From Streptomyces filamentosus (GTDB lineage Bacteria > Actinomycetota > Actinomycetes > Streptomycetales > Streptomycetaceae): a stretch of 64,000 nucleotides of DNA. The stretch covers positions 214,501 to 278,500 of the forward strand of contig NZ_BNBE01000003.1 of NCBI RefSeq assembly GCF_014654895.1. Reading direction: 5' to 3'. The notes beneath the pieces are model-generated. The model searched no databases. It had not been told where the DNA came from and was given only the letters and a program-made list of their open reading frames with translations. The first letter of the stretch is position 1; every line of letters starts with the position of its first letter. A program made the position numbers and the translations under genes. Of this stretch, positions 5,303 through 63,803 are shown one piece after another.

Positions 5303-7006
5303 ATGGCAAGAAAGACCGTGGCCGCTGCACTCGCCCTCGTGGCGGGAGCCGCTGCGGCCGTCACGGTGAACGCCCCGGCCCAGGCCACCCCGCCGGGGAC
5401 CAAGGACGTCACCGCGGTGATGTTCGAGTGGAACTTCGCCTCGGTGGCCAGGGAGTGCGCCGACCGCCTCGGCCCCGCCGGCTACGGCTACGTGCAGGTC
5501 TCCCCGCCCCAGGAGCACCTCCAGGGCGGCCAGTGGTGGACCTCGTACCAGCCCGTCAGCTACAAGATCGCCGGCCGGCTCGGGGACCGCGCCGCCTTCC
5601 AGAACATGGTGAACGCCTGCCACGCGGCCGGCGTGAAGGTCATCGCGGACTCGGTCATCAACCACATGGCCAACGGCTCCGGCACGGGAACGGGCGGGAC
5701 CCCGTTCTCCAAGTACGACTACCCGGGCCTCTACTCCGGCTCCGACATGGACGACTGCCGGTCCTCGATCTCCAACTACCAGGACCGCGCCAACGTCCAG
5801 AACTGCGAACTGGTCCAGCTCCCCGACCTCGACACCGGCGAGGACTACGTCCGCGGCAGGATCGCGGGCTACCTCAACGACCTCCTCTCGCTGGGCGTCG
5901 ACGGCTTCCGCATCGACGCCGCCAAGCACATGCCGGCCGCCGACCTGGCGAACATCAAGTCCCGGCTGACGAACCCGAACGCCTTCTGGAAGCTGGAGGC
6001 CATCCACGGCGCCGGAGAGGCCGTCTCCCCGAGCGAGTACCTCGGCAGCGGCGACGTCCAGGAGTTCCGCTACGCCCGCGACCTCAAGCGGGTCCTCCAG
6101 AACGAGAAGCTCGCCTACCTGAAGAACTTCGGCGAGGCGTGGGGCTACATGCCCTCCGGCCAGTCCGGCGTCTTCGTCGACAACCACGACACCGAGCGCG
6201 GCGGCGACACCCTGTCCTACAAGGACGGCGCGAACTACACCCTCGCCTCCGTCTTCATGCTCGCCTGGCCCTACGGCTCCCCGGACGTCCACTCCGGCTA
6301 CGAGTGGACCGACAAGGACGCGGGACCGCCCAACGGCGGCCAGGTGAACGCCTGTTACAGCGACGGCTGGAAGTGCCAGCACGCCTGGCGCGAGATCTCC
6401 TCCATGGTCGCCTTCCGCAACACCGCCCGCGGCGAGGCCGTCTCGAACTGGTGGGACAACGGCGGCAACGCCATCGCGTTCGGCCGCGGCTCCAAGGCGT
6501 ACGTGGCGATCAACCACGAGTCCTCCGCGCTGACCCGCACCTTCCAGACCTCCCTGCCGGCCGGCACCTACTGCGACGTCCAGTCGAACAGCCCGGTCAC
6601 CGTCGCCGCGAACGGCCAGTTCACGGCCACCCTCGCCGCGAACACCGCCCTCGCCCTCCACACGGGCGCCACGAACTGCGGCGGCACCACCGCCCCCACC
6701 ACGCCCCCCGCCACCGCGGGCGCCTCCTTCAACGTCACCGCCACCACGGTGACGGGCCAGAACATCTACGTCGTCGGCAACCGCGCCGAACTGGGCAACT
6801 GGGCCCCCGCCGCCGCCCTCAAGCTCGACCCCGCCGCCTACCCCGTGTGGAAGCTGGCCGTGAACCTGCCCGCCGGCACGGCCTTCGAGTACAAGTACGT
6901 CCGCAAGGACGCGGCCGGGAACGTCACCTGGGAGTCCGGCGCCAACCGCACCGCGACCGTCCCGGCCTCCGGCCAGGTCACCCTGAACGACACCTTCCGC
7001 AGCTGA
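5303..7006 (+). CDS. amy: secreted alpha-amylase with C-terminal starch-binding domain (GH13-CBM20)
   Basis: 567 residues. A signal peptide ends at about AQA-28, so the enzyme is exported. The GH13 barrel has all four conserved regions: DSVINH (D116), GFRIDAAKH (nucleophile D205), [10 protein letters not shown] (acid/base E232) and VDNHD (D296). A Thr/Pro linker near residue 465 joins a CBM20 starch-binding module ([14 protein letters not shown] ... FEYKYVRKD). This is the endo-acting 1,4-alpha-glucanase layout of Streptomyces amylases. The ATG is preceded by AGGAGGAAGC. It has its own promoter and operator and is followed by a terminator hairpin. Confidence 0.96.
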
Positions 7007-7022
7007 ACCCCCTCCCTCCGCA

Positions 7023-7046
7023 GGGCCGCCCCGACCGGGGCGGCCC
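7023..7046 (+). terminator. hairpin terminator after the amylase gene
   Basis: A perfect 10-bp stem (GGGCCGCCCC / GGGGCGGCCC) with a GACC loop, 17 nt after the amylase stop and before the pullulanase ribosome site. It has no U-tract, as is usual in Streptomyces. It may only attenuate read-through into the next gene. Confidence 0.7.
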
Positions 7047-7074
7047 CCTCTTCCCGTACCTCCAGGGAGCCCCC

Positions 7075-12369
<5,295 letters not shown>

Positions 12370-51621: not shown

Positions 51622-51915
51622 GGTGGTGAATTCTCGCTTCCATTGAGTTCTGTGGCGGTCGAGGGATGGGCCGACCGAGCCCGCCGCATCGTATTTCGGC
51701 CCGATGAGCGCCGAGAACGAGCCTACGCTCGCTCACCCGGTTCGCTCACGGCGGCGTCGATTCACTCATCCGTGGTGTCTCTTTCATGTTTGTCCTTCCG
51801 GCTCGCGCCCCGGCGCCACACTCGCCTCATTCACGCAAGCGCGGCACTCGCGCCTTCGTTTCATCTCCACAGGTCCTCCCGTGCCCGGGGACCTGCCGAG
51901 GGGGGTCACCACACC
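51622..51915. promoter_or_regulatory. divergent control region of pepA and the exopolysaccharide operon
   Basis: A 294-bp gap. The direct repeat TCGCTCAC occurs at 51729-51736 and 51742-51749, with a related CACTCATC shortly after. The region around 51750-51850 is AT-richer and rich in ACTC/TTTC on the plus strand. I could not place a convincing -35/-10 pair. It must contain the promoter for the five-gene operon downstream. Confidence 0.4.
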
Positions 51916-54039
51916 ATGCACACGAACAGATCCGGCATGCCCGCGGCCGCGCCGAAGAAGGCCGGAAAGCAGGGGACGGCCGAAAAGCGGGGGGCGGCGG
52001 GAAGGCGGGCGACGCCGCGCCGGGCCGGCCGCACCGCGGCCGCGCTCGCCGCCGCCGCGCTCCTCGCCGGCGTCCTCCCGTCCGCGCAGGCCGCCGCGGC
52101 CCCCGCGCCCCGGATCGACCTCACGGTCCTCGTCGTCGACGACGGCGGCAGCGCCGTGGAGGCCATCACCGCCGAACTGAAGGGCTCCGGAGTCCCGTAC
52201 CGGGTCGTCGACCTCGACGACCCGAACCGGCCGGTCCTCGACGCGGCCTTCCTCAGCGACACGGTCGACGGCCGGCCCCGCGCCAAGTACCAGGGCGTCG
52301 TCCTGCCCCACGAGACCGCCTTCGGCCCCGACTCCGCCGAGCACACCGCCCTCCAGGCGTACGAGCGGACCTTCGGCGTCCCGCAGGTCGACGCGTACAC
52401 CTGGTCCCACCCCGGCGTCGGCCTCGACTACACCACCGACGGCGGCTGGTCCGGCGTCCTCGACGGCACCACCGCGGGCGTCACCGCCGCCGGGAGGGCG
52501 GGCCCCTTCGGCTACCTCGCGGGCAGCCTGACCTTCGAGGACAACGACCCCGCGATCTCCGAGAGCTACGGCTACGCGGGCCGCCCCCGGGCCGGCTTCA
52601 CCAGCTACGTCGACGTGCCGGTCGGGGGCGGCGGCCGGGCCAGCCTGGTCGGCGAGTACACCGCGGACGGCCGCCGCGAACTCGTCGTCACCTTCGCCTA
52701 CAACCAGTACCAGCGGCAGTTCCGCGCCCTCGCCCGCGGCATCGTCGAATGGCTCACCCAGGGCGTCCACCTCGGCCGGTCCCGGAACTACCTCTCCGTC
52801 CACGTCGACGACGTCTTCGCCCCCGACGCCCGCTGGGACGCCGTCCGCAACTGCACCCCCGGCGACCTCGACTGCGCCGGCGGCGACGGCGAGGCCGAGA
52901 ACCCCATCCGGATGACCGCCGCCGACGCCACCTACGCCGCCGCCTGGCAGAAGGCCTCCGGCTTCACCCTCGACATGGTCTACAACGGCGGCCAGGGCGA
53001 GCAGTGGAGGACCGAGCACGGCGGCGCCGACCCGCTCACCGACCGGCTGCTCGCCGACCGCGCCCAGTACCGCTGGATCAACCACACCTACACCCACCCC
53101 TTCCTCGGCTGCGTGCAGGACAACACCACCGTCCCCTGGCGCTGCGCCACCGACGCCTCCGGCGCCACCCTCTGGGTCAGCCGCTCCGAACTCTCCGCGC
53201 AGATCCGCGACAACCTCGACTGGGCCTTCCGCAAGGGCCTCTCCGTCGACCGCTCCGAACTCGTCACCGGCGAGCACTCCGGCCTGAAGACCCTGCCCCA
53301 GCAGCCCGCCGACAACCCGAACCTCGCCGGCGCCCTCGCCGACAACGGCGTGAAGTGGACGGGCAGCGACAACTCCCGCGAACCCCTCCAGCGGGCCGTC
53401 GGCGCCGCGAAGACCGTCCCCCGGCACCCCATGAACGTGTACTACAACGTGGGCACCGCCGCCGAGATGGCCGACGAGTACAACTGGATCTACACCTCCC
53501 GCGCCGACGGCGGCAGCGGCGCCTGCGAGGACAACTCGGCCTCCACCTGCCTGCCCGCCCCGCTCGACACGACCACCGGCTACGCGACGCACATCGTCCC
53601 GCAGGAGGCCCGCACCGCCCTCGGCCACGTCATCGCCAACGACCCCCGGCCGCACTACGTCCACCAGTCGAACCTGGCAGAGGAACGCCTCCTCTACCCG
53701 GTCCTCGACAAGGTCCTCGCCGACTACAGGACGCTCTTCGCCGCGAACACCCCGATCGTCAACCCCTCCCAGAAGGACGTCGGCACCGAACTGGCCCGCC
53801 GCGAGGCGTGGGACGCCGCCCTCGCCGCCGGCAAGGTCACCGCCTACCGGATCGGCACCGCCGTCACCGTCAAGGCCCCCTCCGGCGTCCAGGTCCCCGT
53901 CACCGCCCCCGAGGGCACCCGCAGGCAACTCCTCCTCGGCACCACCGCCTTCGGCACCCCCTACGCCGGCGCCCGCTCCGCCTGGACCGCGCCCGAACTG
54001 CTCCAGACCTCCGTCACACTCCAGCTCCCGACCGCCTGA
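51916..54039 (+). CDS. secreted polysaccharide deacetylase, Agd3-like (CE18)
   Basis: 707 residues. A basic N-terminus and hydrophobic stretch ending in Ala-rich SAQAAAAPAP (near residue 60) form a signal peptide. Residues about 65-285 form a beta-rich, probably sugar-binding part. The catalytic part holds a metal-binding pair in SVHVDDVF (D298, D299) and NHTYTHP (H390, H394), the deacetylase triad arrangement. This matches Agd3, the Aspergillus enzyme that deacetylates galactosaminogalactan, more closely than ordinary NodB enzymes. It should remove acetyl groups from N-acetylgalactosamine-type polymer outside the cell. First gene of a five-gene operon. Confidence 0.75.
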   Translation: MHTNRSGMPAAAPKKAGKQGTAEKRGAAGRRATPRRAGRTAAALAAAALLAGVLPSAQAAAAPAPRIDLTVLVVDDGGSAVEAITAELKGSGVPYRVVDLDDPNRPVLDAAFLSDTVDGRPRAKYQGVVLPHETAFGPDSAEHTALQAYERTFGVPQVDAYTWSHPGVGLDYTTDGGWSGVLDGTTAGVTAAGRAGPFGYLAGSLTFEDNDPAISESYGYAGRPRAGFTSYVDVPVGGGGRASLVGEYTADGRRELVVTFAYNQYQRQFRALARGIVEWLTQGVHLGRSRNYLSVHVDDVFAPDARWDAVRNCTPGDLDCAGGDGEAENPIRMTAADATYAAAWQKASGFTLDMVYNGGQGEQWRTEHGGADPLTDRLLADRAQYRWINHTYTHPFLGCVQDNTTVPWRCATDASGATLWVSRSELSAQIRDNLDWAFRKGLSVDRSELVTGEHSGLKTLPQQPADNPNLAGALADNGVKWTGSDNSREPLQRAVGAAKTVPRHPMNVYYNVGTAAEMADEYNWIYTSRADGGSGACEDNSASTCLPAPLDTTTGYATHIVPQEARTALGHVIANDPRPHYVHQSNLAEERLLYPVLDKVLADYRTLFAANTPIVNPSQKDVGTELARREAWDAALAAGKVTAYRIGTAVTVKAPSGVQVPVTAPEGTRRQLLLGTTAFGTPYAGARSAWTAPELLQTSVTLQLPTA

Positions 54040-54065
54040 CCAGCACGCTCTGGGGGGACACGCAC

Positions 54066-55610
54066 ATGCCGAGCAGTGGCCGTCACGTCACCATGCTCAC
54101 CGAAGGCACCTACCCGCACGTCCACGGCGGCGTCAGCACCTGGTGCGACCAGCTCGTCCGGGGCATGCCCGAGGTCACCTTCGAGATCCTCGCCCTCACC
54201 GGCAGCGGCCGCGAACCCGTCACCTGGGAGCTGCCGCCCAACATCGCCCGGCACACCGCGTTCCCCCTTTGGGGGCACCCGCAGGGACCGGACGCGCCCA
54301 CCCGGGCGCGCCGGCCCCTGCGGGGGCGCGAACGCCGCCGCTTCCTCGCCACGTACGAGCACTTCCTGCTCGCCCTGCTCGACCCCGAGGCCGGCCACGA
54401 CCTCGCCGGCAGCCTCTACGGACTGGCCGCCCTCGCCCGTGACGGACGGCTCACCCCGGCCCTGCGCTCCGAGGCCGCCCTGCGCTCCCTCATGTGGATC
54501 TGGACCATGCCGCACCTGCCGACGCGTGCGGCCGGACCCACCGTCCACGACGCCCTCACCGCCACCGACCTGCTCGAACACGCCCTGCGGCCGCTCGGCG
54601 CCCGGATAGCCGACGGCAGCGTGGCGCACGCCGTCTCCAGCGGCCTCGCCACCCTGCCCGCGCTCGCCGCGCAGCACTTCGAAGGAGTGCCCTTCCTGCT
54701 CACCGAACACGGCATCTACCTCCGCGAGCGGTACCTCGGCTACCGCACCGAGGCCCAGCGCTGGCCCGTCAAGGCCCTCATGCTCGGCTTCTACCGCGAG
54801 CTCAACTCCCTCGGCTACCGCAAGGCCGACCTCATCACCCCCTGCAACCAGTACAACCGGCGCTGGGAGGAGCGCGGCGGCGCCCCCGCCGACCGCATCC
54901 GCACCGTCTACAACGGCGTCGACCCCGCCCTCTTCCCCGAGGCCGGCCCCGAACCGGAGACGCCGACGCTCAGCTGGTGCGGCCGGGTCGACCCGATCAA
55001 GGACCTGGAGACCCTCGTCCGGGCGTACGCGATCTCCCGCGCCGAACTCCCCGAGCTCAGGCTCCGCCTCTTCGGCCCGGTCCCCGCGGGCAACGAGGAC
55101 TACCGCACCCGCCTGGAGAAGCTCGCCGCCGAACTCGGCGTCGCCGACGGCGTCTCCTTCGAGGGCCGCGTCTCCGACGTCCCCTCCGCCTACGCGGCCG
55201 GCAGCGTGGTGGTGCTCTCCTCCATCAGCGAGGGCTTCCCCTTCTCCCTCATCGAGGCCATGTCCTGCGGCCGGGCGACGGTCTCCACCGACGTCGGCGG
55301 GGTGCGGGAGGCGGTCGGCGACGCCGGCGTCGTCGTCCCGCCCCGCGAACCCGCCGTCATGGCCGCCGCCGTCTCCGCCCTGCTGCGGGACGACGCCCGC
55401 CGCGCGGAGCTCGGCCGCCGCGCCCGGCAGCGGGTCGTCGACGAGTTCACCCTGCACCGCTCGGTCGACGGCTTCCGCCGCATCTACCGCGAACTCGCCG
55501 CCCCCCGCGCCCCCCTGCCCGCGTCCGTCCCCGTCCCCGTCCCGCTGCGCGTCAGCATCCCCGCCCCGCGCCGCGGCGCGCCCCGCGTCCCGGAAGGCAC
55601 CCCGGCATGA
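54066..55610 (+). CDS. GT4 glycosyltransferase, PelF/Gtb3-like
   Basis: 514 residues, cytoplasmic. The N-terminal EGTYPHVHGGVSTWCDQL (residues 13-30) is the hallmark of PelF-type enzymes. LLTEHGIYLRERYLGYR and RTVYNGVDP follow, and the C-terminal GT-B lobe has WCGRVDPIKD and SSISEGFPFSLIEAMSCG with the conserved E-x7-E. PelF uses UDP-N-acetylgalactosamine for Pel, and Gtb3 is its fungal counterpart. It is the likely polymerase here. A Pro/Arg tail precedes the stop, which overlaps the next start by 4 bp. Confidence 0.85.
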   Translation: MPSSGRHVTMLTEGTYPHVHGGVSTWCDQLVRGMPEVTFEILALTGSGREPVTWELPPNIARHTAFPLWGHPQGPDAPTRARRPLRGRERRRFLATYEHFLLALLDPEAGHDLAGSLYGLAALARDGRLTPALRSEAALRSLMWIWTMPHLPTRAAGPTVHDALTATDLLEHALRPLGARIADGSVAHAVSSGLATLPALAAQHFEGVPFLLTEHGIYLRERYLGYRTEAQRWPVKALMLGFYRELNSLGYRKADLITPCNQYNRRWEERGGAPADRIRTVYNGVDPALFPEAGPEPETPTLSWCGRVDPIKDLETLVRAYAISRAELPELRLRLFGPVPAGNEDYRTRLEKLAAELGVADGVSFEGRVSDVPSAYAAGSVVVLSSISEGFPFSLIEAMSCGRATVSTDVGGVREAVGDAGVVVPPREPAVMAAAVSALLRDDARRAELGRRARQRVVDEFTLHRSVDGFRRIYRELAAPRAPLPASVPVPVPLRVSIPAPRRGAPRVPEGTPA

Positions 55611-57037
55611 GCGGCTCCCTCTGGCTGAAGCCCCCCGCCAGCACCCCGCCCCTGGCCGCCCCGCCCCGGCCGCGCCCCGCCCCGGAGGTCCCCGCGGGCC
55701 CCGGCCCCGCCCCCGACCCCCTCGACGAACTCGCCGCCCGGCTGGACGCGTTCGTGGCCGCCGCCGTCCACCCGGACGAGATAGCCGCGCTCCTCGAATC
55801 GGACGGGATGACCGACGCCCACATCCGCCTCACCTACGGGCGGAACGATTCCTTCGCGCTCGCCGAGGACCTGTACGCGCGCGTGGAGCGGTGCCACCCC
55901 GAGCCGCCCCCGAGGACCCGCGGCGGCCGCGTCCGGGCCGAGGGGCTCGGCGGCTGCCTGCTCCGCGGGCTCGTCTTCGCGCTGCCCGGCCTCGCCTACG
56001 TCCTGGCCGGGCCGCTGCTCGCCGCCGGACCGGGGCGGTACGGACTCCCCGCCGGGACCGTCCCGCTGCTCGCCGGGGCGGTCACCGGCTGGGTGTGGAA
56101 CCAGGCCCTCTCCCACCGCGCCCACACCTGGCTCGGCCTCGGCGACCGGGCCGCCGCCGCCCGCGCCCTCCTCACCGGCGCCCCGGCCGGCGCGCTCGCC
56201 GGCACCGCCGTCGCCCTCGCCGCCGCCCGCGACGGCGAACTGCCCGCCGCCGTCTTCGCCGCCGGGCAGTCCCTCTACCTCGCCGCCGCCACCGTGCTCC
56301 TCGTCCTCGGCCGCGAACGGGCCCTGCTCGCCGCCCTGTCGCCGCTCGCCGGCGCCCTCCCCGCCCTCCGCTGGGACCTGCCCGACCCGTTCAGGGCCGG
56401 ACTGCCCGCCCTCTCGCTGGCCGCCGCCGTCCTCGTCGCCGCCCGCGCGCTGCGCCCCGGCACCGCGCGCGGAGCCGCCGGGCGGGGCGGACCGCCGCTC
56501 GGGACCTCCGTCCCGTACGGCCTCTTCGGCCTGGGCAGCGGCCTCCTCGTGCTGGACGCCGGGCTCGGCGAATCCCCGGCCGCCGGCGCCGGCGCGGTCA
56601 TCGCGCTCACCCTCTCCATGGGGCCCGCCGAGTGGCTGCTGCACCGCTTCCGGGGCGGCAGCCTCGCCCGGCTGCGGACCCTCACCACCGCCCGCGAGTT
56701 CCGCCGCGCGGTCACCGGCACCCTGGTCCTCTGCCTGGGCGGCTACCTCACCGTGCTCCTCGCCCTCGCCCTCGCCGCGACCCTGCTGTGGCCCGGCGCG
56801 CCCTGGCCGGCCCCGGAGCGGCTGCTCACCCTGCTGCTGCTCGGCACCGTGCTCTGGCTGGGGCTGCTCCTCCAGGCGTTCGGCGCCGTCCTCGGCGCGG
56901 CCGCCGTCTGCCTGCTGGCCGCCGCCGCGCAGACCCTGGAACCGGCCGCGGGACCGCTCGCCGCCGGGGGAGCGGCGGCCGTGCTGGCCGTCCTCACCCG
57001 TGCTCTGCTGGTACGACCGACCGCCCACCGCCTCTAG
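55607..57037 (+). CDS. polytopic membrane protein of the exopolysaccharide operon
   Basis: 476 residues, overlapping the GT4 stop by 4 bp. Residues 1-50 are Pro-rich. Residues about 50-100 form a soluble motif (HPDEIAALLESDGMTD, TYGRNDSFALAEDLY). The rest is about 10-12 membrane helices. I recognise no transporter motif. Size and position suggest the exporter, as PelG is for Pel or the membrane half of fungal Gtb3, but sequence similarity is not established. Confidence 0.7.
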   Translation: MSGSLWLKPPASTPPLAAPPRPRPAPEVPAGPGPAPDPLDELAARLDAFVAAAVHPDEIAALLESDGMTDAHIRLTYGRNDSFALAEDLYARVERCHPEPPPRTRGGRVRAEGLGGCLLRGLVFALPGLAYVLAGPLLAAGPGRYGLPAGTVPLLAGAVTGWVWNQALSHRAHTWLGLGDRAAAARALLTGAPAGALAGTAVALAAARDGELPAAVFAAGQSLYLAAATVLLVLGRERALLAALSPLAGALPALRWDLPDPFRAGLPALSLAAAVLVAARALRPGTARGAAGRGGPPLGTSVPYGLFGLGSGLLVLDAGLGESPAAGAGAVIALTLSMGPAEWLLHRFRGGSLARLRTLTTAREFRRAVTGTLVLCLGGYLTVLLALALAATLLWPGAPWPAPERLLTLLLLGTVLWLGLLLQAFGAVLGAAAVCLLAAAAQTLEPAAGPLAAGGAAAVLAVLTRALLVRPTAHRL

Positions 57038-57065
57038 GGCCACCGCACTCCGGGAGACACCCCAC

Positions 57066-57686
57066 GTGAAACGTTCCCTCCTGGTGCCGTTCTACGAGCA
57101 CCCCGCCGACCGCCCCGAGGGCTGGGCGGCCCTCGTCGCCGCCGCACCGGCCCTCCACGGCGTCGTCCTCAACCCGGCGAACGGGGCGGGCGAGGCCCCC
57201 GACCCGGCCTTCGCCGAGGCCGCCGCCCGGCTGCGCGCCGAAGGGGTGCGGATCCTCGGCTACGCGGACACCGCCTACGGCCGCCGCCCGCACGCCGAGG
57301 TCGTCGCCGACCTGCTCCGCCACCGCGAGTGGTACGGCGCGGACGGGGCCTTCCTCGACCAGGTCGCGACCGCGCCCGAGGCCCTGCCGCACTACCGGCG
57401 GCTCGCGGTCGCGGCCCGCGCCGCCGGGGCGGCGACCCTCGTCCTCAACCACGGCACCCGGCCCGACGAGGGGTACGCGGACCTCGCCGACCTGCTGGTC
57501 ACCTTCGAGGGCCCGTGGGACGCGTACCGCACCCTCGACCTGCCCGCCGCCCCGCACCACTGCCACCTCGTCTACGCGGCCCCGCCCGGCTTCCGCCCCG
57601 CGACCGAGGTCCACTGCGCGGTGCCGGGCACCGGCGCCCACCCCTGGGGCACCCTGCCGCACGAGGTCCCGGAGCCCGCCCGATGA
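57066..57686 (+). CDS. spherulin-4 family protein (Sph3/GH135-like)
   Basis: 206 residues from GTG. Family landmarks: LLVPFYEHP, VVLNPANGAGEAPDP (N36-P47), GYADTAYGRR (65-74), EWYGADGAFLDQ (D93, D98), LNHGTRP and VTFEGPW. In Aspergillus, Sph3 cuts galactosaminogalactan and is needed to make it. PelA carries a related hydrolase domain. The first residues (MKRSLLVPF) run straight into the first strand with no signal peptide, so this copy looks cytoplasmic, which is odd for the family. The stop overlaps the next start. Confidence 0.8.
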   Translation: MKRSLLVPFYEHPADRPEGWAALVAAAPALHGVVLNPANGAGEAPDPAFAEAAARLRAEGVRILGYADTAYGRRPHAEVVADLLRHREWYGADGAFLDQVATAPEALPHYRRLAVAARAAGAATLVLNHGTRPDEGYADLADLLVTFEGPWDAYRTLDLPAAPHHCHLVYAAPPGFRPATEVHCAVPGTGAHPWGTLPHEVPEPAR

Positions 57687-58474
57687 GACGCCGCCTGCCG
57701 CTCCTCGCGGCCCTGCTGCTGCTCGCCACGGCCTGCACCTCCGGCCCCGGCCCCGACCCCAAGCCGGAGGAGACCGGCCGCTGGCGTCCCACGGCCGGCC
57801 TCGCCTGGCAGTGGCAGCTCAGCGGGAGGCTGGACCCGACCGTCGACGTCCCGGTCTACGACATCGACGGCTTCGACCACCCGGCCGCGACCGTCGCGGA
57901 CCTGCACCGCCGGGGCCGGAAGGTGATCTGCTACCTCTCCACCGGCGCCTGGGAGGACTTCCGCCCCGACGCGGACCGCTTCCCGAAGTCCGTCCTCGGC
58001 CGGGGCAACGGCTGGGCCGGCGAGCGCTGGCTCGACATCCGCCGCACCGACGTCCTCGAACCCCTCATGGCGGAGCGGATCGACATGTGCCGCGCCAAGG
58101 GCTTCGACGCGGTCGAGCCGGACAACATGGACGGCTACCGCAACCGCACCGGCTTCCCCCTCACCGCCGCCGACCAGCTCCGCTACAACCGCCTGATCGC
58201 CCGCCTCGCCCACGACCGGGGCCTCGCCGTCGGCCTCAAGAACGACCTCGACCAGATCCCGGCCCTGCTCCCCGACTTCGACTTCGCGGTCAACGAGCAG
58301 TGCGCCGAGTACGACGAGTGCCACCGTCTCGCCCCCTTCGTCGCGGCCGGCAAGCCCGTTTTCCACGCCGAGTACGAACTGGCCCCCGCCGCGTTCTGCC
58401 CCGAGGCCCGGGAGCTGGGCCTCAGCTCGATGCGGAAGCGGTACGAGCTCGACGCCTGGCGCAGGCCCTGCTAG
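57683..58474 (+). CDS. GH114 endo-alpha-1,4-polygalactosaminidase-like lipoprotein (Ega3-like)
   Basis: 263 residues. A lipoprotein signal peptide ends LLLATAC with lipidated C18, so the enzyme is anchored outside the membrane. GH114 landmarks: WQWQLSG, VYDIDGFDH (D60, D62), VICYLSTGAWEDFRPD, FDAVEPDNMDGY (E145, D147), VGLKNDLDQ and FAVNEQCAEYDEC. The family cuts partly deacetylated galactosamine polymers. It ends the operon; the downstream gene is convergent. Confidence 0.87.
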   Translation: MRRRLPLLAALLLLATACTSGPGPDPKPEETGRWRPTAGLAWQWQLSGRLDPTVDVPVYDIDGFDHPAATVADLHRRGRKVICYLSTGAWEDFRPDADRFPKSVLGRGNGWAGERWLDIRRTDVLEPLMAERIDMCRAKGFDAVEPDNMDGYRNRTGFPLTAADQLRYNRLIARLAHDRGLAVGLKNDLDQIPALLPDFDFAVNEQCAEYDECHRLAPFVAAGKPVFHAEYELAPAAFCPEARELGLSSMRKRYELDAWRRPC

Positions 58475-58497: not shown

Positions 58498-59667
58498 CTA
58501 GGAGACCTCGTAACAGGTGGTCAGCACCTCGGTGCCGGTGCCCTCCTCCGGGGGCGTCCACCAGGCCCAGATGCCCCGCCCGCAGACCGCCTGGCTGCGG
58601 GCCGTCGTCTCCTCCGGGTCCGCGCCGGGGGCGACCCGGTGCTGGCCGGTGATCCGGGCGTCGTGGGAGGCGCCGCAGGAGACGGTCACCACCTGGCGGC
58701 TGTTGCGCTGGCCGGTGGTGAAGTCGACGCAGCCGCCCTCGCGGACCTCGGCGATGTCCCGGACGACGTCCGCCGCCTTCAGCACCCGGTCGCCGGGGGC
58801 CGGGGAGGGCACCGGGGAGCCGTACCCGGTGAGGGTGAGATCCATGGTGAGGGTGGTGAAGGCGGTGAGGTCGCCGTCCTCGCGGAACGCGTCCTTCACG
58901 GTGATCCCGGCGCGGGTCAGCCGCCCCTGGCCGTCCACCTCGACGGCGAGCGGGACGGGCGGCCGCTGGGCCGCGCTCGCACCGGCCGTGACGAGGTGGG
59001 GCCCGAGGTCGGGCGGGAAGAGCAGCTCCAGCGTGGTGTCGGGCAGTCCCGCCCGGTAGACGCGGCCGCCGGCCTTCCCCTCGCGGTACGAGGTCGCCGT
59101 CCCGGCGCCCACCGCCTCCAGGAGGGTGCCGCCGACCGGGGCCTCGCTGCCGCGCAGGAACTCCAGGGGGTCCTCGCCGACGAACGACTTGGCGACGCCC
59201 TCGGTGTCCTCGGGGGCGTAGTCGATCCAGTACGGGGAGGAGGCCGCCCGGTAGCGGGTCCGGTCGCGGTCGACCAGATAGGTGCCGGAGGTCTCGCCGT
59301 CCTCCCGGGAGGGCGTGAAGCCGAGGACGGCGGTGCGCACCTTCGCGGAGGTCTTCGCGGGGAGGTCCCAGGTCACCGCGACGCTCCCGCGGTCCGCGGC
59401 GAAGTCGAGGCTGCCGGTCATGGTCCGGACGAGGTCGCCCTTCTTCCCCGCGAAGGTCAGCTTCTGGGTGAAGCGGGCGGTGCCCGCCTTCTGCGTCTCC
59501 CGCAGGGCGAGGAAGACCTGCCGGCCGGTCTTCTGGCCGAAGACCGGGTGGTCGGCGGTGGCCGAGGGGCCGGGCCGGGCGGAGTCCTGCCCTCCGGCCG
59601 AACAGGCGGTCAGGGAGAGGAGGACGGCGGCGAGTCCCGCGGCGGAGCGGACGAGTTTTCCGGTCAT
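58498..59667 (-). CDS. lipoprotein of unknown function
   Basis: 389 residues. Signal peptide and lipobox VLLSLTAC, so lipidated and extracytoplasmic. The central part (residues about 45-260: RFTQKLTFAGKKGDLVRTM, GTYLVDRDRTRYRA) resembles the LppX/LprG-like beta-barrel half-fold of actinobacterial lipoproteins. The C-terminal 120 residues hold several cysteines (GGCVDFT, VSCGASH, AVCGRG, TTCYEVS), probably in disulfides. It might bind lipid or report envelope state. It is convergent with the polysaccharide operon and so not part of it. Confidence 0.8.
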   Translation of the reverse strand: MTGKLVRSAAGLAAVLLSLTACSAGGQDSARPGPSATADHPVFGQKTGRQVFLALRETQKAGTARFTQKLTFAGKKGDLVRTMTGSLDFAADRGSVAVTWDLPAKTSAKVRTAVLGFTPSREDGETSGTYLVDRDRTRYRAASSPYWIDYAPEDTEGVAKSFVGEDPLEFLRGSEAPVGGTLLEAVGAGTATSYREGKAGGRVYRAGLPDTTLELLFPPDLGPHLVTAGASAAQRPPVPLAVEVDGQGRLTRAGITVKDAFREDGDLTAFTTLTMDLTLTGYGSPVPSPAPGDRVLKAADVVRDIAEVREGGCVDFTTGQRNSRQVVTVSCGASHDARITGQHRVAPGADPEETTARSQAVCGRGIWAWWTPPEEGTGTEVLTTCYEVS

Positions 59668-61360: not shown

Positions 61361-62046
61361 CCCCGCCGCCGCCACGCCCGGACGGCGATCAGCACGAGCA
61401 CGCCCGCGATGGCCGCCAGGTGCTCCTTGCCCGCGAGGTTCGGCTTGACGAACACCTCGACCACCATCGCCACGACGACGGCCGCGCCCGTCCAGTACGC
61501 CCGCTGCCGCCAGCAGACGTAGACGGCGAGCCCCACCACGGCCGCCGAGGGCCCGGTGTCCACCACCTGCGCGTCGGAGGCGGGGAGCCCGAAGGGGGTG
61601 CCGGGGCCCAGCGCGATGCCCGCGCGCGCGTACAGCGTCCCGCAGAGCGTCGCCAGGTACGCGATCCCCAGCGTCCGCCCCCGCCCCAGGCACAGCTCCG
61701 CGATCCCGAAGACCAGCAGGACCTGCGCGAGCGCGCCCCAGACGGGCAGGTCGAGCGCGGGGACGAAGAGCGACAGCGGCGTGCGCAGCAGGGCGAGCCA
61801 CAGCGGGTCCCCGGCGCGCACCGCGCCGACCGCCTGCACCGGCCCGTACCCCCAGTCCTGGTTCTGCGCGAACTGGAAGAGGGCGGTGAGGCAGACCGCC
61901 GACAGCGTCAGCGGCACCGCCCGCCACCGCCGGGCCGCCGGCTCCCGCCGCAGGACGGCGAGGAGCGGCCCCCACTCGCGCCGGGCGAAGCGCCGTACGG
62001 GGGAGGTCCGGGGAGCCGGGGCGGACGGGGAGGACGGGGAGGTCAA
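61300..62046 (-). CDS. rhomboid-like multi-spanning membrane protein
   Basis: 248 residues from TTG 62046, overlapping the MprF-like stop (TTGA). About six hydrophobic segments. VVDTGPSAAVVGLAVYVCW contains a GxSx-like element, and EHLAAIAGVLVLIAV supplies a His in a following helix, as in rhomboid folds. Protease activity is uncertain because the usual GxSG is altered. Coupling to the MprF-like gene suggests a joint envelope role. Confidence 0.7.
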   Translation of the reverse strand: MTSPSSPSAPAPRTSPVRRFARREWGPLLAVLRREPAARRWRAVPLTLSAVCLTALFQFAQNQDWGYGPVQAVGAVRAGDPLWLALLRTPLSLFVPALDLPVWGALAQVLLVFGIAELCLGRGRTLGIAYLATLCGTLYARAGIALGPGTPFGLPASDAQVVDTGPSAAVVGLAVYVCWRQRAYWTGAAVVVAMVVEVFVKPNLAGKEHLAAIAGVLVLIAVRAWRRRGQGEPVPRPGTRSWKPPIRS

Positions 62047-63803
62047 CGCCCGCCCGCCAGGTGCTTGCGGTGCAGCCACTTCGGCAGGCCGGGCGCCTCC
62101 AGGAAGCCCTCGGCGCGCCCGGCGGCGAGACCGATGCGCAGCAGGTCGGCGCTCTTCTCGAAGAGCATGAAGCGGGGCTCCCAGATCGGTCGGTACTTGG
62201 CGTTGGCGCGGTACAGCGACTCGATCTGCCACCAGCGGGAGAAGAAGCTGAGCAGCGAACGCCACATGCGCAGCACGGGTCCCGCGCCGAGCTTCGAGCC
62301 GCGTTCGAAGACGGAGCGGAACATCGCGAAGTTCAGCGAGACCTGAGTGATCCCGATCTCCTTCGCCCCCTGGAGGAGTTCGATCACCATGAACTCCATC
62401 AGGCCGTTCTCCGACGCGCGGTCCCGCCGCATCAGGTCCAGCGAGAGCCCCTTCGGCCCCCACGGCACGAAGGAGAGCAGCGCCCGCAGTTCGCCCTCCC
62501 CGTCGGTGCACTCCAGCATCACGCAGCGCCCGTCGCGCGGGTCCCCGAGCCGCCCGAGTGCCATCGAGAAGCCCCGCTCGGTCGCCCCGTCCCGCCAGTC
62601 GTCGGCCTTCCGCAGCAGCTCGTCCATCTCCTCGGCGGGAATGTCCTCGTGCCGCCGGACCCGGACCTCGTACCCGGCCCGCTTGACCCGGTTGTACGCC
62701 TGCCGGACGGTCCGCATCGCCCGCCCGTCGAGGGTGAACTCGTCGGTCTCCACGATGGCCTCGTCGCCCAGCTCCAGGGCGTCCAGGCCGTGCCGGGCGT
62801 AGACCGTCCCGGCCTCCTCGCTCGCCCCCATGACCGCCGGGATCCAGCCGTGCTCGCGGGCCTCGGCGAGCCAGGGCTCGATCGCCCCCGGCCACGCCTC
62901 GGGGTCGCCGATCGGGTCGCCCGAGGCCAGCGACACCCCGCCCACCACCCGGTAGGCGATCGCCGCCTTCTCGCTCGGCGACCACACCACGCTCTTCTCG
63001 CGGCGCAGCGCGAAGTAGCCCAGCGAGTCGCGGTCCCCGTGCCTGTCGAGCAGCGCCCGCAGCCGCTCCTCGTCCTCCTCGGTCAGCGGGTCGACGGCCC
63101 GGCGCGAGCGGAAGGCGGCGAAGAGCACCGCGAAGAGCAGCAGCGTGGACATCACGTTGATGACCACGTCGACCCAGCCGGGCGTGGTGATGGTGGGGAA
63201 GCGGGAGTCGTCGGCGGCCAGCGTGACCAGCCGCATCACGCCGTACCGCCAGCGCTCCAGGAAGGTGGAGGAGCCGGCGGCCGTGTTGGTGGCGGTGACC
63301 AGGACGGCGGCGAGCAGCGAGGTGACGAGCAGTCCGCCGACGGCGACGAGCGCGGCGAGCAGCGGGTTGGAGCGGTCGCCCTTCGCGTAGAACTCCCTGC
63401 GGCCGAGGAGCAGGGCGGTGAAGAAGGCGGCGGTCAGGCCCAGCGAGATCCAGTTCTGGGCGTGCCGCCTGATCTCGGGGAAGAGCATCACCAGGGCGAA
63501 GAGCAGCAGGAAGAGGCCGCTCAGCACCGTGTTGAGGATCCACGCGGCCCGCTTGCGGCGCCGCATGGTGATCGCCAGGAAGAGCGTGAAGACGCCGGAG
63601 GCGAAGCCGGCGGTGAGCATGTAGGGCGTGAAGTAGTCGTCCTCGTTGTGCCGGCGCAGGTCCTGTCCGAAGGACACCCACACGGCGCTCAGGAAGTTGA
63701 TGAACGTGACGACGCGGAGGTACCAGACGGCGAACGCGGCACTGCGCCGCGTCCGGTCGGTGCTCCGGGACACTCCTTCGGCGGACAAACGGACCTCTCC
63801 CAT
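62043..63803 (-). CDS. MprF/LysX-like phosphatidylglycerol aminoacyltransferase-type membrane protein (DUF2156)
   Basis: 586 residues. About six N-terminal membrane helices (residues 25-235), then a cytoplasmic DUF2156 double-GNAT domain: LGYFALRREKSVVWSPSEKAAIAYR, GVSLASGDPIGDPEAWPGAI, VKRAGYEVRVRRHEDIP, FVPWGPKGLSLDLMRRD and ENGLMEFMVIELLQGAKEIG. Such proteins transfer an amino acid, typically lysine, from tRNA to phosphatidylglycerol, lowering surface charge. The amino acid cannot be told here. The transcript may be leaderless. Confidence 0.88.
   Translation of the reverse strand: MGEVRLSAEGVSRSTDRTRRSAAFAVWYLRVVTFINFLSAVWVSFGQDLRRHNEDDYFTPYMLTAGFASGVFTLFLAITMRRRKRAAWILNTVLSGLFLLLFALVMLFPEIRRHAQNWISLGLTAAFFTALLLGRREFYAKGDRSNPLLAALVAVGGLLVTSLLAAVLVTATNTAAGSSTFLERWRYGVMRLVTLAADDSRFPTITTPGWVDVVINVMSTLLLFAVLFAAFRSRRAVDPLTEEDEERLRALLDRHGDRDSLGYFALRREKSVVWSPSEKAAIAYRVVGGVSLASGDPIGDPEAWPGAIEPWLAEAREHGWIPAVMGASEEAGTVYARHGLDALELGDEAIVETDEFTLDGRAMRTVRQAYNRVKRAGYEVRVRRHEDIPAEEMDELLRKADDWRDGATERGFSMALGRLGDPRDGRCVMLECTDGEGELRALLSFVPWGPKGLSLDLMRRDRASENGLMEFMVIELLQGAKEIGITQVSLNFAMFRSVFERGSKLGAGPVLRMWRSLLSFFSRWWQIESLYRANAKYRPIWEPRFMLFEKSADLLRIGLAAGRAEGFLEAPGLPKWLHRKHLAGGR

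Follow-up and report, generated by a model that had tools for sequence, protein, structure and literature searches.

Organization and conservation of the operon

The genome of Streptomyces filamentosus (8.85 Mb in five contigs; RefSeq assembly GCF_014654895.1) carries an operon of five genes, here called A through E, whose products resemble proteins of the fungal galactosaminogalactan (GAG) and bacterial Pel exopolysaccharide systems. The operon lies in a 64,000-nucleotide stretch of contig NZ_BNBE01000003.1 (positions 214,501 to 278,500), hereafter the window, in which coordinates are given and whose protein topologies were judged by hydropathy. All five genes are intact, co-directional open reading frames (ORFs) on the + strand that together occupy positions 51916–58474. 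Gene A (51916–54039, ATG start) encodes a 707-amino-acid secreted deacetylase that is Agd3-like (CE18-like), and gene B (54066–55610) a PelF-like GT4 glycosyltransferase of 514 amino acids that is predicted to be cytoplasmic. Gene C (55607–57037) specifies a 476-amino-acid, 12-helix membrane protein with a predicted multidrug/oligosaccharidyl-lipid/polysaccharide (MOP) fold of the MATE/WzxE/MurJ kind. The last two genes, D (57066–57686, GTG start) and E (57683–58474), encode a leaderless spherulin-4 (GH135-like) protein of 206 amino acids and a GH114 endo-galactosaminidase-like lipoprotein of 263 amino acids, respectively. Gaps of 26 and 28 bases separate A from B and C from D, and the B-C and D-E junctions are 4-base overlaps. 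An earlier interpretation made from the letters of the window (the sequence-only reading) had described five co-directional genes with tiny gaps or 4-base overlaps and had recognized in them the four enzyme families and a polytopic membrane protein, and this description is borne out by the analyses presented below.

The best 80 of 298 relatives of A, all from Streptomyces, were compared with the window. A divergently oriented pepA gene precedes A in 79 of the 80, and B and C follow A in 63 of the 65 relatives whose sequence extends 6.5 kb or more beyond A. The gene order in these 65 relatives is B-C-D-E (51), B-C-D (9), B-C-E (3), D only (1) or none of these genes (1). Automatic ORF calls in the 80 relatives were incomplete (75 for A, 77 for B, 66 for C, 64 for D and 56 for E), and the 4-base overlap was observed in 51 of 66 B-C pairs, 26 of 63 C-D pairs and 47 of 53 D-E pairs. 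Because both the gene order and the pepA neighbour recur across relatives, we conclude that the grouping of these genes is not due to chance.

The region between the divergent pepA and A genes (51622–51915) presumably contains the promoter, and long blocks of it are nearly identical across the 13 relatives that were aligned. At two other Streptomyces loci (L042 and L043), A lies beside pepA, but the fetched stretch shows neither B nor C after it; L043 has D. This arrangement possibly reflects decay of the operon.

The deacetylase, glycosyltransferase and GH114 proteins

Bamford 2020 (PMC7229062) defines the motifs of Agd3 as an Asp-Asp pair, an HxxxH sequence, a conserved Arg and a catalytic His. 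Residues of this CM1–CM4 type are found in A at D298 D299, H390-x3-H394, R488 and H580/H583, where R488 and the acid His were assigned by their order along the chain, and they are retained in 76 of 76 aligned sequences. When 31 homologues of A were compared with Pfam, 25 matched the Agd3 catalytic domain (PF25115, Agd3_CE) at an E-value of at most 0.01 (best 3.4e-7) and one matched CBM87; the E-value of A itself against CBM87_Agd3 is 0.11. A Foldseek search with a structure model of A against 350,542 PDB chains placed Agd3 (6nwz) at the top, with an E-value of 7.1e-7 over 758 columns, a template modelling (TM) score of ~0.3, a root-mean-square deviation of 20 and a predicted local distance difference test (pLDDT) value of 49.7. 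In addition, hhalign aligned A with a protein encoded at positions 6719–8674 of a locus from another actinomycete (L187) with an E-value of 9.7e-34 and 32% identity over 504 columns that cover the CBM and CE regions, and this protein exceeds the Pfam cut-offs for both Agd3_CE and CBM87.

Assignment of A to another deacetylase family was also considered. The next matches in the Foldseek search are heparan sulfate N-deacetylases, but their E-values (1.3e-5 to 4.5e-5) are weaker than that of Agd3, and so A does not prove closer to an unrelated deacetylase family, an outcome against which the sequence-only reading had asked that its assignment be checked. Residues 38–64 of A form a hydrophobic N-terminal stretch. 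The motif residues, the Pfam matches of homologues, the Foldseek result and the link through L187 suggest that A is a secreted Agd3-like deacetylase, with its activity being predicted. PF25115 proved too weak as a survey probe, since it matched 1 of 21 genomes and missed the A protein of the window itself.

The assignments of B and E are more direct. The PelF family NF038011 (equivalog cut-off of 100 bits) is matched by B with 170.8 bits across profile positions 2–489 of 489, Pfam assigns DUF3492 and GT4 to the protein, and no hydrophobic stretch was found in it. Protein E scores 299.4 bits against the GH114 family PF03537 (cut-off 27), matches Ega3 (6oj1) with an E-value of 8.5e-60, and is the sole GH114 match in the window genome. 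Its lipobox cysteine (Cys18) is present in 56 of 57 aligned sequences, and D147 and E205 are present in all 57, with a spacing of 58 residues like that of D189 and E247 in Ega3.

A membrane protein with a predicted MOP fold

Protein C exceeds the cut-off of no Pfam family, matches no NCBIfam family, and yields no match when its profile is compared with PDB sequences. An AlphaFold2 model built from 40 sequences (pLDDT 79.2) contains ~12 long helices that follow an N-terminal helical domain. When this model was compared with known structures by VIA-align, rows 1 through 48 were all MATE/MOP, WzxE or MurJ proteins by title, except for row 32, which is titled 'protein A', with Z values ranging from 18.1 to 10.0. 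The next rows are PmtCD, an ABC exporter, with Z values of 9.4 and 8.1. The Z values are 18.1 for MATE, 14.4 for WzxE and 12.3 for MurJ, and these are to be read against the warning given by VIA-align that the top Z of a helical model may be as high as ~14 even when it has no clear relative.

Although PelG is described in passages of PMC13254593 as a 12-helix MOP protein, neither the C protein of the window nor 39 of its relatives matches the PelG family (PF16933) by Pfam. A search of the window genome likewise gave no PelG match, with the control matching in 1 of 14 genomes. C thus has a predicted MOP fold and belongs by this prediction to the same superfamily as PelG, though it is not PelG by sequence. 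It is likely, judging from the model, that C works like PelG without being PelG.

The N-terminal helical domain of C (~65 amino acids, 55712–55906) is common to the C proteins of all three cluster types described below. A profile of this domain hits the window genome at two sites, both of them in C proteins, with 150 of 295 first-look candidates scored. This domain corresponds to no known family. Candidates from the PDB are weak (8vd6 with an E-value of 0.00022 and no stretch passing alone; Cue1 with an E-value of 0.15), as are those from Pfam (the best being DUF2688, with an E-value of 0.0028 in 3 of 28 members). A Padloc search with C and D gave no match.

A spherulin-4 protein without a leader

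Protein D matches Spherulin4 (PF12138) with 94.9 bits (cut-off 30.2), and its profile of 33 sequences matches Sph3 (5c5g) with an E-value of 6.9e-22. No 19-residue hydrophobic stretch is present, and hydropathy reveals no membrane anchor or signal peptide. Measured over 15 residues within the N-terminal 30, the hydropathy of D peaks at 0.94 for 65 window-type sequences and 1.31 for sequences of types I and III (see below), compared with medians of 2.04 for A and 2.4 for E by the same measure, although E sequences range down to -0.48. Lone spherulins at loci L114 through L117 were unusable as a hydropathy control, since their automatically assigned starts are too late. Fungal Sph3 is membrane-anchored or secreted; D, which lacks a leader, is not a secreted hydrolase of that kind, and judging from its sequence it appears to stay inside the cell. 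In the lone spherulins at L114–L117, the domain is preceded by hydrophobic stretches and followed by long additional C-terminal regions, and no other part of the system was found in the fetched stretches.

The putative catalytic pair of D is D98/E148. Among the 65 window-type sequences, D98 is present in all and E148 in 64, the odd sequence being from locus L055, where the D match is a short piece only. The spacing of the alignment between D and Sph3 fits Asp166/Glu222, which we take to be the catalytic pair of Sph3 reported in the original paper. Sph3 Glu167, the neighbour of Asp166, is presumably important as well, and the corresponding position of D is Gln99, which is found in 65 of 65 sequences. 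In a passage of PMC12054363, this pair is given as Asp196/Glu222 of Sph3. The Pfam match to D ends at position 169 of 239, and we considered whether D might be a truncated barrel; relatives, however, keep the conserved C-terminal blocks HCAVPG and HPWGTLP. We therefore read D as a compact barrel with, in the window clade, a shorter stretch before these C-terminal blocks.

Three types of spherulin clusters in Streptomyces

A spherulin match was found in 76 of 119 genomes searched, and 55 further spherulin loci (15 + 20 + 20) were chosen from this search. Most can be placed in one of three types. Type I (A-B-C-L-N-P-D) accounts for 25 of the 55 loci, 14 of which have E and one of which has no A match in the fetched stretch. 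Type II (A-B-C-D), to which the window belongs, accounts for three loci, two with E. Type III (B-C-P-D) accounts for 22 loci, one of which is cut by a contig end. The remainder comprise four spherulins without any other part and one locus without a D match. Type II lies beside pepA in the 79 relatives noted above and in 3 of 3 further loci, and type III lies in 22 of 22 cases beside a gene that we presume to be moeZ-like, a name given from the sequence rather than obtained by a family search. In an even draw from the phylum, in which this genus is under-represented, spherulin-4 was found in 7 of 198 genomes, five of them of this genus, including the window genome.

The additional genes of type I encode a LegB-like 4,6-dehydratase of the short-chain dehydrogenase/reductase (SDR) class (L; 452–454 bits, cut-off 475), a sugar nucleotidyltransferase (N) and a further SDR (P). 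For example, L118 (7031–9713) and L120 (6846–9517) are type I loci in which the LegB-like dehydratase, nucleotidyltransferase and SDR genes lie between C and D. The presence of these genes suggests that an unusual nucleotide sugar is used in type I.

The window genome also contains a second, paralogous cluster of type III beside a moeZ-like gene (locus L003, contig C1, 9529–14754, - strand). One of its genes encodes a GT4/DUF3492 enzyme that scores 64.2 against PelF, short of the required 100. The others specify an SDR 'epimerase', a spherulin and a membrane protein with the same N-terminal domain as C (46% over 83 columns). No match to A or E was found on either strand of the 22 type III stretches, and none was found at L003.

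The types differ in the active site of their spherulins. Among the further loci, all 25 type I and all 3 type II D proteins retain the acid/base Glu, but it is lost in all 22 type III proteins (Ser in 15, Ala in 3, Arg in 2, Thr in 1 and Gln in 1). Counting L003 (Ser), the loss extends to 23 of 23. Asp nevertheless occupies the nucleophile position in 15 of the 22 type III proteins and in L003. The hydrolase residues of D therefore track with the deacetylase gene A, and the persistence of a type III spherulin without its acid/base Glu points to a second, non-catalytic function for the protein.

A FastTree phylogeny was prepared from 60 B proteins (25 of type I; 13 of type II, including the window and 9 from the 80 relatives; 22 of type III), with the PelF protein of L187 as the root. 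Types II and III each form one clade with support of 1.0, and type II falls inside type I in a joint clade with support of 0.984. A very long outgroup branch (3.4) makes this root tentative. If this root holds, the window type probably lost L, N and P, such that its lack of an epimerase gene would reflect loss rather than a primitive minimal state, because type II nests in type I. The proposal that the operon is a distinct, minimal version lacking PelD and an epimerase is not upheld, given the fuller type I operons in 25 of the 55 loci. In addition, two galE genes exceed the cut-off in the window genome (377 and 325 bits), and the second related cluster has its own SDR 'epimerase' gene. The donor may be either UDP-GalNAc made by galE or what the type III SDR produces.

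Proposed function and alternative explanations

We consider it fairly probable that the operon directs the synthesis and maturation of a GAG/Pel-type extracellular polymer, built of a partly de-N-acetylated amino sugar for which alpha-1,4-linked N-acetylgalactosamine is the best candidate. The scheme builds on the computed families, catalytic residues, export signals (present in A and E, lacking in D), predicted MOP fold and gene order. In the cytosol, the PelF-like B would polymerize an amino sugar supplied in nucleotide-activated form, and the chain would be passed out of the cell by C, acting in the role of PelG. Acetyl groups would be removed by the secreted A to give a cationic chain, and the deacetylated stretches would be cut outside by the lipid-anchored E. 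D would sit on the inner face together with B and C, where it may trim acetylated chains or may serve as a subunit of the synthase. Galactosamine as the polymer sugar and a role in the adhesion of hyphae are inferences.

More specifically, the spherulin-4 of Streptomyces might be a cytosolic synthase subunit that works with the PelF-like enzyme and with the new MOP-fold exporter through its N-terminal domain, and that keeps this job as a dead enzyme in type III. We regard this extension as a tentative possibility, with the odds somewhat against it. A cytosolic-subunit role, if true, would offer one answer to the question of why GAG synthesis in fungi depends on Sph3 even though Sph3 is a hydrolase. 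According to passages of PMC11356417, a Neurospora GH135 deletion stayed adherent.

Several observations weigh against the polymer proposal. Protein A scores 19.2 bits against PF25115, below the cut-off of 27.6, and so is not a filed member of the Agd3 family; its structure model is poor, as the pLDDT value indicates; and a profile of 31 A sequences did not find Agd3 among PDB sequences, where phmmer with A likewise returned nothing relevant. The Foldseek E-values of C are weak (best 0.019), and hhalign gives a probability of 0.3% for C versus the true PelG of L187, which shows no sequence similarity. E was not seen downstream in 9 of the 65 relatives. A PelD profile search of the window genome gave no match, but the control matched nowhere, and thus absence cannot be inferred. 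Finally, the LegB-like 4,6-dehydratase, nucleotidyltransferase and second SDR of type I operons suggest that the sugar, at least in that type, is not GalNAc.

This last observation underlies the best-surviving alternative, an amino-sugar polymer of another sugar, such as a 6-deoxy-N-acetylhexosamine produced by L, N and P of type I, with the window type having kept the donor or sourcing it elsewhere. Type I, which encodes this set of enzymes, is the apparent source of the window type. However, no close LegB homologue is present in the window genome (best 138.9 bits), and GH114 and GH135, described in passages of PMC12054363 as galactosaminidase families, are represented by proteins E and D that keep their catalytic pairs. 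We therefore consider another sugar unlikely.

A second alternative concerns the step carried out by C, whose predicted fold matches WzxE and MurJ as well as MATE. If C flips a short lipid-linked glycan as do Wzx and MurJ, then the operon would decorate the cell wall and no free exopolysaccharide would be made. This explanation seems improbable to us, more so than a change of sugar, since no initiating sugar-phosphate transferase, Wzy-type polymerase or ligase is encoded among the five genes, B exceeds the PelF equivalog cut-off, and an endo-acting GH114 enzyme suits a long chain. A third alternative is that the operon instead serves to attack or use GAG or Pel made by rival fungi and bacteria, as a secreted deacetylase with a GH114 enzyme and the galactosaminidase activity reported without a sequence for S. 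griseus (passages of PMC7229062 and PMC12054363) might suggest. We regard this as very improbable, given that in 63 of 65 loci A is followed by genes for a PelF-type synthase and for a membrane exporter, and that no uptake transporter is found by family among the five genes.

Genes downstream of the operon

Directly downstream of the operon is a lipoprotein gene on the - strand (58498–59667), which has a match in the stretches from 4 of the 80 relatives (41–46% identity), some of which end earlier. Farther along, the gene at 62043–63803 (- strand) resembles the lysyl-phosphatidylglycerol synthetase part of LysX/MprF, with 655 bits to LysX (cut-off 742).

Relation to known systems and implications

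According to Bamford 2020 (PMC7229062), actinobacteria have operons in which an Agd3 homologue is accompanied by GH114, by a multi-spanning membrane protein and by a glycosyltransferase that is cytoplasmic, as is predicted for B; some of them also include spherulin-4. The gene set itself is already published, and the window operon is a variant of it. The earlier proposal of a GAG/Pel-type system accordingly stands with respect to the four enzyme families and the logic of export and deacetylation, but not as something new. The class of the membrane protein, the location of the spherulin and the three cluster types are not treated in the main-text parts of Bamford 2020 that were compared, and the MOP fold predicted for C, the leaderless D and the three cluster types are what our analysis adds. 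No description of the three cluster types or of a cytosolic spherulin was found among the matches listed by a literature search whose scope excluded supplements and most subscription papers, which is not proof of novelty.

The Aspergillus GAG cluster (uge3, gtb3, agd3, sph3 and ega3) is similar in having a deacetylase, GH135 and GH114 proteins and a glycosyltransferase synthase, with E resembling Ega3 and D resembling Sph3 in sequence. It differs in that the synthase function is split between B and C in the window, where no epimerase gene is present in cis. The Pel operons (pelDEADAFG of Bacillus cereus and pel of Pseudomonas) share with the window a PelF family enzyme, a MOP-fold exporter (predicted for C) and an extracellular deacetylase, but C is not PelG by sequence and the deacetylase of the window is Agd3-like. 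Gram-positive pelDEADAFG operons, including those of actinobacteria, have galE nearby in many cases, according to passages of Whitfield 2020 (PMC7112168).

Locus L187 (3010–10578; genome G141, from an actinomycete outside the genus) encodes PelF, PelG and Agd3-like proteins in a row, preceded by a HEAT/TPR protein. Like the window operon, it combines PelF and Agd3-like genes with a nearby spherulin. Unlike the window operon, it has a true PelG (463.6 bits), and its spherulin carries a hydrophobic leader and is encoded on the opposite strand. As judged from these sequences, L187 is a link between the Pel and GAG gene sets.

Poly-N-acetylglucosamine has been reported for Streptomyces MatAB (PMC5972031). 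If our proposal holds, a further polymer, cationic and of the galactosamine type, could be made by many Streptomyces, which would have a bearing on adhesion, on the formation of pellets and on the control of biofilms by enzymes. The three natural cluster types differ in which parts of the machinery they hold, with nucleotide-sugar genes in one, without them in another, and with a dead spherulin and no deacetylase in the third. They thus make two questions tractable, namely why a hydrolase is needed in synthesis and whether PelG can be replaced.

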